Of a stretch of DNA of 50,172 nt, positions 34,396 to 35,891 are shown piece after piece. This DNA comes from a bacterium. GTDB taxonomy: Bacteria > Sysuimicrobiota > Sysuimicrobiia > Sysuimicrobiales > Segetimicrobiaceae. Position 1 is the stretch's first letter, and every line of letters begins with the position of its first letter. The notes under the pieces were generated by a model that had not been told where the DNA came from, did no database searches, and worked only from the letters and a program-made list of their open reading frames with translations. The stretch spans positions 1-50,172 of the forward strand of contig DATGHU010000050.1 in NCBI GenBank assembly GCA_035307765.1. The letters run 5' to 3'. The position numbers and the translations under genes were made by a program.

Positions 34396-34728
34396 TCAGT
34401 GGGATGTCTCGCCGGAGCCCTCCGTCGACGAGCCGGACGCGGTTTCCACATGGACCTCGGTCTCTCCTTCATCCGAGGCCTCAAACGCCTGGCGGACTCG
34501 CTCGAACTCCGCATCGTCCTCAATCGTCACGAGGGTGTCATCCTCCATCCGGAAGATCACCGCGGTCTCCGACTCCTCCCCACCCATCACGGGCTGGAGC
34601 ACCGCGTATCGACGCTGATCCACTTCCAAAACATCGACGACGCTGAACTCGTGCTCGACCCCATCCTCATCGAGCAACTTAATGACGTCCTCGTCGCCGC
34701 CCACGCGGGACACCCCCTTGTGGTTCAT
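34396..34728 (-). CDS. DUF1292 family protein
   Basis: A 110-residue very acidic protein. The middle, VIKLLDEDGVEHEFSVVDVLEVDQRRYAVLQP, is the DUF1292 (YrzB-like) fold; the last 35 residues are Glu/Ser/Thr-rich and probably disordered. Function is unknown. The ATG at 34726-34728 is about 30 bases downstream of the predicted transcription start from a strong promoter at 34765-34793, which probably also serves the YqeG gene and peptidase behind it. Confidence 0.85.
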   Translation of the reverse strand: MNHKGVSRVGGDEDVIKLLDEDGVEHEFSVVDVLEVDQRRYAVLQPVMGGEESETAVIFRMEDDTLVTIEDDAEFERVRQAFEASDEGETEVHVETASGSSTEGSGETSH

Positions 34729-34764: not shown

Positions 34765-34793
34765 AGTCTAACATTCGTCATCAGGATGGTCAA
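34765..34793 (-). promoter_or_regulatory. Promoter for the DUF1292-YqeG operon
   Basis: Minus-strand TTGACC (34788-34793) and TAGACT (34765-34770) are 17 bases apart. It is back-to-back with the plus-strand promoter at 34849-34878, 56 bases away. Confidence 0.72.
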
Positions 34794-34848
34794 CGCATCA
34801 TCCATGGAAGTTCCGCAGCACACGCAACGATGCTCTCGCTGACTTGCA

Positions 34849-34878
34849 TTGACACACGTTCCGCAGACCGCGTATCAT
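34849..34878 (+). promoter_or_regulatory. Promoter of candidate small RNA
   Basis: TTGACA (34849-34854) and TATCAT (34873-34878) with an 18-base spacer on the plus strand. No plus-strand gene follows before the terminator 60 bases on, so the promoter appears dedicated to the short transcript listed next. Confidence 0.68.
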
Positions 34879-34884
34879 CGTCGT

Positions 34885-34977
34885 GCAGACGCACCGTTCG
34901 AGGGCGGGGAGAGCATGCGTCATGCACCCCGCTCAGCAACGAGGCCGGATCCTCCTCCCGGCCTCGTTGTATTTTTT
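34885..34977 (+). ncRNA. Candidate structured small RNA (about 93 nt), no known family recognised
   Basis: Starting about seven bases after the -10 box, the predicted transcript has a nested stem in which GGGCGGGG (34902-34909) pairs with CCCCGCTC (34927-34934, one G-U pair), enclosing GCATG-CGT-CATGC (34913-34925). It ends in a strong intrinsic terminator. A small hairpin GTGC-AGAC-GCAC (34883-34894) overlaps the 5' end. No downstream plus-strand gene exists, so it is not an attenuator. It lacks the SRP RNA, 6S and T-box landmarks I know. A short frame beginning ATG at 34915 with GGGGAG upstream runs through the terminator and is less convincing. Existence rests on signals only. Confidence 0.5.
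34938..34977 (+). terminator. Strong Rho-independent terminator
   Basis: AACGAGGCCGG (34938-34948) pairs perfectly over 11 bp with CCGGCCTCGTT (34958-34968), loop of nine bases, followed by GTA and TTTTTT (34972-34977). This is the clearest intrinsic terminator in the window and it works on the plus strand, opposite to all neighbouring genes. Confidence 0.88.
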
Positions 34978-35070: not shown

Positions 35071-35622
35071 TTAGGCGCGAAGCCCATCGAACACCCACAG
35101 GACCGCCCACACGTACCACTGCGTCTCCGCGAAGGGCGGGATCCCCTCCCAGCGATGGACCGCCCCGCTCCCCGCGTTGTACGCGGCCAGCACCAGGGGA
35201 AGATTCCGAAACTCATCGAGGTCGAGCCGAATCAGCCACGCCGCACCGAAGAGGTTCTGGAGGGGATCGTGGGGATTCACGCCCAGCCCGTTCGCGGTCC
35301 CGGGCATCAGCTGCCCGAGTCCCTCCGCCCCGGCCGAAGAGATGGATTGGTGATTGAACCGGCTTTCGATGTAGACCACCGAGGCGAGAAGGCGCGGATC
35401 CAGTCCGTAGCGTGTGGCCGCGGCAACCACGGCGTAGCCCAACCAGCGCGCCTGCCCGGATGTCAGCCGCGGGTTCGACGCCCGCACGAAGGCGGCGTAC
35501 TCCTCGGGGGTGCGCACGCGCCACCGCGGGCGGGTCACTTCGATCCCCAAGAGGTTGAGCCAGACCGCAGCGCACCTTGTTCCGCCGTGCTGGGATGCCG
35601 CCGGAGCGCTTCTGTAAACCAC
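35071..35622 (-). CDS. Lytic transglycosylase SLT domain (C-terminal piece, frame-shifted from its signal-peptide part)
   Basis: The frame encodes a transglycosylase domain: WLGYAVVAAATRYGLDPRLL, the catalytic glutamate in ASVVYIESRFNHQSISSAGA, then EGLGQLMPGTANGLGVNP and LVLAAYNAGSGAVHRWEG. Such enzymes cleave peptidoglycan glycan strands in the periplasm. The frame has no signal peptide; GTG at 35620-35622 is only a nominal start. The overlapping gene at 35535-35891 in another frame carries a signal peptide and TPR-like helices, and together the two make a normal secreted transglycosylase. A frameshift at about 35535-35622 is therefore likely. Confidence 0.8.
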   Translation of the reverse strand: MVYRSAPAASQHGGTRCAAVWLNLLGIEVTRPRWRVRTPEEYAAFVRASNPRLTSGQARWLGYAVVAAATRYGLDPRLLASVVYIESRFNHQSISSAGAEGLGQLMPGTANGLGVNPHDPLQNLFGAAWLIRLDLDEFRNLPLVLAAYNAGSGAVHRWEGIPPFAETQWYVWAVLWVFDGLRA

Positions 35623-35891
35623 GCCGTCGCCCCGGCCCGATCTCCCCGCGCCACCTCCACCGCCCCCATCCACAGCGCGGGGCGTGCGGACATCGGGGCT
35701 TCGGCCGCGGCCCGGCCAAACGCCTGCGCCGCCTCGACGAACGATCCCGCTCGGTAGTCGGCCGCCCCACGGATCATCCACGACTCGATGCCCTCGCCAT
35801 GCGCGGGAGGGCTGAAGGCGAAGGCAAAAACGAGGGCGATCGGCAGGATAACCGCGCCGGACCACGCGCGGCATCGTCTCAGGCCACGCAT
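35535..35891 (-). CDS. Signal peptide and TPR-like N-terminal piece of the split transglycosylase
   Basis: A 118-residue frame. It begins MRGLRRCRAWSGAVILPIAL, followed by FAFAFSPPAHGEG, a typical signal peptide with AxA-like cleavage, then one to two TPR-like helical pairs (DYRAGSFVEAAQAFGRAAAE, VEVARGDRAGATAWFTEALR). It ends just inside the region where the SLT frame begins, with an unconvincing last 15 residues. It could be an independent small periplasmic protein, but the missing export signal of the next frame makes a broken or recoded single gene the better reading. ATG at 35889-35891. Confidence 0.62.
   Translation of the reverse strand: MRGLRRCRAWSGAVILPIALVFAFAFSPPAHGEGIESWMIRGAADYRAGSFVEAAQAFGRAAAEAPMSARPALWMGAVEVARGDRAGATAWFTEALRRHPSTAEQGALRSGSTSWGSK

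Follow-up and report, generated by a model that had tools for sequence, protein, structure and literature searches.

A short intergenic region in the DNA of a member of Ca. Sysuimicrobiota (formerly CSP1-3, according to the taxonomy lookup, which places Ca. Segetimicrobium there) very probably harbors a free-standing small RNA (sRNA) gene. It lies in a stretch of 50,172 nucleotides, which we call the window. The most informative feature of the locus appears to be the invariant CCUCCUCCC loop of its terminator hairpin, which was overlooked in an earlier sequence-only reading of the same DNA. We favor, with some reserve, a genus-restricted trans-acting sRNA that would mask Shine-Dalgarno sites with this terminator loop.

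Promoter, transcript and terminator of the candidate sRNA

As the sequence-only reading had described, the candidate lies between minus-strand genes, and no plus-strand gene was found 3' of it among the open reading frames of the window. Its left-hand neighbors are DUF1292 and a YqeG-like HAD hydrolase; the gene to its right encodes an SLT-domain lytic transglycosylase. Pfam analysis of the seven surrounding frames gave DUF1292, HAD hydrolase, SLT, TPR, M24, EF-P, and GGDEF. The elements of the locus are as follows.

34765-34793, minus strand: divergent DUF1292-YqeG promoter TTGACC-17-TAGACT, belonging to the neighbor and outside the sRNA gene
34797-34809, plus strand: conserved upstream box ATCATCCATGGAA, 13/13 columns identical in G000, G002, and G003
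34849-34854, plus strand: -35 hexamer TTGACA, from sequence, 6/6 columns kept in three species
34873-34878, plus strand: -10 hexamer TATCAT, from sequence, 6/6 columns kept in three species
34885-34977, plus strand: predicted sRNA transcript of ~93 nt, its start placed from the -10 hexamer, backed by the z-score of the fold and by homologous predicted transcripts
34902-34934, plus strand: first hairpin, a 5-bp hairpin inside an 8-bp stem, from the fold, not conserved
34936-34970, plus strand: terminator hairpin of 13 bp with a 9-nt loop, 33/35 columns conserved
34951-34959, plus strand: putative anti-Shine-Dalgarno motif CCTCCTCCC in the terminator loop, with its final two C in the stem, based on 9/9 loop invariance and accessibility
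34972-34977, plus strand: terminator T-run TTTTTT, from sequence, TTTT in G003 and TTT in G002

The promoter at 34849-34878 (TTGACA-18-TATCAT, plus strand) matches the consensus at 11 of 12 positions and is, judged by its letters, of the sigma-70 type. The RNA from 34885 to 34977 has a fold energy of -48.7 kcal/mol, with z = -5.25 against 200 dinucleotide shuffles. Thus the promoter, the structured ~93-nt stretch, and the terminator that had been noticed on the plus strand are all present. The terminator stem, formed by 34936-34948 and 34958-34970 with G-U as the outermost pair, is 13 bp long rather than the 11 bp first counted, and a single A separates it from the six-T run, which stands as reported.

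We compared these elements with shuffled sequences. Promoters with at least 11/12 matches occurred 0.017 times per shuffled 50-kb window (both strands), versus two in the actual window, namely the sRNA promoter and the promoter before recA. Since the other strong promoter belongs to recA, the promoter scan finds plausible promoters in this window. A promoter-plus-terminator unit, defined as a promoter with at least 10/12 matches and, 40-150 nt further on, a stem of 9 bp or more plus a T-run, occurred once in the window and not at all in 60 shuffles.

Conservation of the locus within the genus

The DUF1292 gene was present in 11 of 12 family genomes; G001 gave no match, which is uninformative since these are draft genomes. 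The gap between DUF1292 and the SLT gene exists in four genomes of the genus, that of the window (G000) and the congeneric G002, G003, and G004, and it contains the sRNA gene in G000, G002, and G003, while in G004 it is short and empty. In the stretches examined from other family genomes, no lytic transglycosylase adjoining DUF1292 was found.

In the three-way alignment of the locus (G000, G002, and G003), the promoter hexamers were identical in 12/12 columns versus 4/18 for the spacer, whose length was 18, 17, and 17 nt, respectively. The terminator hairpin was conserved in 33/35 columns and its loop in 9/9, and only 9/56 columns were conserved in the 5' half of the RNA. Flanking DNA was merely ~70-75% identical; therefore, the hexamers, the upstream box, and the terminator hairpin are islands of conservation. 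Homologous transcripts of ~101 nt in G002 and ~80 nt in G003 were predicted. The 8-bp/5-bp first hairpin folds in the window as it had been described, but it adopts another fold in G002 and is weak in G003, which, with the poorly kept 5' half, does not bear out the importance given to it. The T-run shrinks from six in the window to four in G003 and three in G002 with the loop unchanged, so the 'perfect terminator' of the sequence-only reading is not a general feature of the locus.

Within the terminator stem, which is the stem retained in the relatives, one pair shows a compensatory change from A-U to G-C in G002. The outermost pair changes from G-C to G-U in the window, which suits the plus strand; on the opposite strand, C would face A without pairing. 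One compensatory pair from three sequences is a count equalled in 173 of 500 shuffles; covariation support is weak, and the case for the sRNA is independent of it. That case, as a stand-alone gene, is strengthened by the hexamers and the terminator hairpin, which two other species retain at the syntenic position.

A DNA search of 61 genomes and a covariance search of 43 genomes gave convincing matches only in G000, G002, and G003. The weaker matches inspected, in G027, G030, G011, and G012, had ordinary stems of the terminator type and lacked the CCTCCTCC loop. The exact pattern CCGG..CCTCCTCCCGG had no further match with a comparable hairpin in the 43 phylum genomes, and CCTCCTCC followed by a T-run gave no second comparable hairpin in the phylum. 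Among GTDB contigs, GGCCGG..CCTCCTCCCGGCC had 40 matches, one of which was the known G003 contig (G003:C38, 9,667 bases; L073); L058, L059, and L076 had an extended stem or a T-rich tail but were unlike the sRNA locus. Because three methods found no other copy among the 43 phylum genomes, we regard the putative sRNA as a genus-level gene, either gained after the split of the G004 line or lost from that line.

Two look-alikes were seen in distant genomes. In G051 (L004, 1501-1534), an almost identical hairpin, GAGGCCGGAACCTCCTCCCGGCCTC, with a T-run follows another GC-rich hairpin. This genome is related at the domain level only, and there the hairpin is the terminator of a pilus-type gene that converges with lon; we treated the resemblance as coincidence. 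In a Nitrospinota MAG, CCCCGGCCGGACCCTCCTCCCGGCCGGGGTTTTTTT (L076, 3687-3707, minus strand) is a terminator-like hairpin displaying the CCTCCTCCC motif.

The upstream box ATCATCCATGGAA is missing from G004, which lacks the sRNA, and at this locus it occurs only in sRNA-bearing genomes. Its 12-nt core has only one further copy in five congeneric genomes. The box is possibly a regulator site, and a factor bound there would perhaps modulate the sRNA promoter. The -35 hexamer follows it after 52 bases in G000 and G002 and after 30 bases in G003, a difference of 22 bases or about two turns of the helix.

The putative anti-Shine-Dalgarno loop and its relation to known RNAs

The terminator loop is AUCCUCCUC; together with the two stem bases that follow, it includes CCUCCUCCC, which is perfectly complementary to extended Shine-Dalgarno sequences. 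In the predicted ensembles of the RNAs of all three species, CCUCCUC is unpaired with a probability of 0.82-1.0. Each homologue (G000, G002, and G003) has one such motif. These features suggest that a sigma-70-type promoter would drive an RNA of ~80-100 nt ending at its own intrinsic terminator, whose hairpin would double as the effector: the invariant loop would expose CCUCCUC(CC), pair with GGAGG-type Shine-Dalgarno sequences (e.g., GGAGGAGG), and block translation initiation of the target mRNAs. Such an anti-Shine-Dalgarno mechanism is somewhat favored by analogy with known RNAs, and the sRNA probably lowers translation of mRNAs with GGAGG-type sites. Transcription of the locus, base pairing with mRNAs, the direction of regulation, and the targets are what we infer from the DNA.

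It is less likely, though the best of the alternatives, that the sRNA is real and its loop incidental, the RNA acting by protein binding, by antisense pairing with the 3' UTR of the mRNA from the convergent transglycosylase gene, or through its CCCCGC stretch, with the hairpin retained mainly as a terminator. This would fit the recurrence of terminator-like hairpins with GAGGCC-type stems in the phylum and the orientation of the transglycosylase, which reads toward the sRNA and has its stop ~20 nt beyond the hairpin in G002 and G003. However, in a plain terminator the loop should be under weaker constraint than any other part, whereas here it is invariant at 9/9 positions; because it is unchanged even where the T-run decays, termination alone fails to explain it. 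The minus strand of the hairpin also has no U-run for termination. Rather improbable is a locus without functional RNA, in which promoter and terminator serve only to bound transcription locally or to interfere with it and the RNA is a by-product. Its restriction to the genus and its absence in G004 are compatible with such an element, which would nevertheless need neither a near-consensus promoter kept in three species with a drifting spacer nor an invariant loop.

Rfam returned no family at the gathering score in the window, 6S, SRP, tmRNA, and T-box included, in line with the lack of such landmarks in the sequence-only reading, and a dedicated search found no tRNA or tmRNA. At a relaxed threshold, CcsR1 (RF02791) was the best match in the window and the sole match in the G002 and G003 loci, with 21.1, 26, and 22.5 bits, respectively (E-values 0.0064, 0.0054, and 0.058), about one third of the gathering score of 65.3. 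CcsR1 stands for 'conserved CCUCCUCCC motif stress-induced RNA'. The 11-nt AUCCUCCUCCC of the terminator loop is identical to that of Rfam CcsR1, and the covariance alignment to CcsR1 is full-length, though weak. Like CcsR1-4 of Rhodobacter sphaeroides (RF02791), the candidate would be a short RNA with a AUCCUCCUCCC loop hairpin near its 3' end; unlike them, it is one gene with its own promoter in a different phylum. CcsR1-4 are four RNAs processed from a single transcript with the DUF1127 gene ccaF1 (PMC10253847).

The alpha-r14 (NfeR1) family and the 'cuckoo' RNAs of Alphaproteobacteria also have the CCUCCUCCC anti-Shine-Dalgarno hairpin loop, a sigma-70-type promoter, and a stand-alone gene, but the alpha-r14 RNAs have three hairpins, each bearing the motif, with variable stems (PMC10746234). 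In the sRNA described here, the CCUCCUCCC loop occurs in one hairpin instead of several; this hairpin is the terminator, and conservation extends to its stem. The CCUCCUCCC loops of rhizobial RNAs have been described as anti-Shine-Dalgarno motifs (PMC3927594). Mutation of the NfeR1 seeds abolishes silencing of ntrB, and NfeR1 is Hfq-independent (PMC10746234). In our searches Hfq gave just a marginal domain match within long frames (282-420 aa), and a canonical chaperone is therefore not evident. RNAIII, CyaR, and AbcR1, with partial anti-Shine-Dalgarno loops, resemble the candidate in the pairing of a loop with ribosome-binding sites (as cited in PMC3927594), which in the candidate is predicted; no sequence relationship to them was found, and none was returned by Rfam. 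Features of the anti-Shine-Dalgarno sRNA class that the candidate shares are a predicted accessible seed and a free-standing unit with its own promoter and terminator.

By this analogy, the sRNA probably works like the cuckoo/CcsR RNAs, although it is not a demonstrated member of them. That it is a highly diverged true member, by common descent or by transfer from Alphaproteobacteria, is very improbable: the identical AUCCUCCUCCC loop and the top rank of CcsR1 in Rfam speak for it, but the scores of 21-26 bits fall far short of the gathering score, only one hairpin bears the motif, the seven Pfam-searched frames around the sRNA include no DUF1127 gene, and no copy was found elsewhere among the 43 phylum genomes. 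Finally, a gene for a small protein or leader peptide is scarcely credible, since the open frame from ATG 34915 (plus strand), although present in the window, passes through the terminator as had been remarked, the frame that enters the conserved hairpin differs between G000 and G002, and a counterpart is missing from G003; no conserved peptide unites the three.

Chances seem even that the predicted sRNA opens a new family in Ca. Sysuimicrobiota as its first recognised member, with the terminator hairpin as anti-Shine-Dalgarno effector and with an 11-nt loop that arose independently of the alphaproteobacterial cuckoo/CcsR RNAs but is identical to theirs. We came across no published account of regulatory small RNAs from Sysuimicrobiota, and the 2024 description of the phylum does not contain 'small RNA' or 'noncoding'. 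Segetimicrobiaceae is the most abundant soil family of Sysuimicrobiota (PMC11604079). If the sRNA is real, an identical anti-Shine-Dalgarno loop so far from Alphaproteobacteria would mean that one regulatory solution has either been reached convergently or spread deeply. The sRNA would then offer a compact model with one loop and one terminator. The surprise is only moderate because this kind of mechanism is already known.

Candidate targets and neighboring genes

We searched G000 for GGGAGGAGGAT, the perfect 11-nt complement, and found 11 sites, including the opposite strand of the sRNA itself and a tRNA-like 3' end. Two sites lie at the Shine-Dalgarno position of long frames which, judged by eye, encode one beta-propeller-like and one TIM-barrel-like protein. 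These two complements are not retained in the orthologues of either gene, and therefore no conserved target emerged. ATCCTCCTCCC is also seen at the tRNA-like 3' end (GGGGGTTCGAATCCTCCTCCCCCAGCCA) in G000, G001, G003, and G004 (L120, L122, L119, and L104). The sequence-only reading had also considered action on the divergent DUF1292-YqeG operon, which gained no specific support.

The GTTGAC block of the DUF1292-YqeG promoter is kept in intergenic regions family-wide. Family conservation indicates that DUF1292 (34396-34728) probably starts at a downstream GTG after an AAGGGGG Shine-Dalgarno site and not at ATG 34728. The lytic transglycosylase of the window is apparently frameshifted, with its TPR N-terminal part and its SLT domain in different frames (35535-35891 and 35071-35583, minus strand); both parts are in one frame in G002, G003, and G004. 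The frameshift may be an assembly error or a real disruption. At some distance, the gene that we take to be recA (13910-12705, minus strand) has a near-consensus promoter, TTGACA-18-TATACT (11/12), at 13930-13901, and the spacer of this promoter contains CGAACATATGTTTG, presumably a LexA/SOS-like box.
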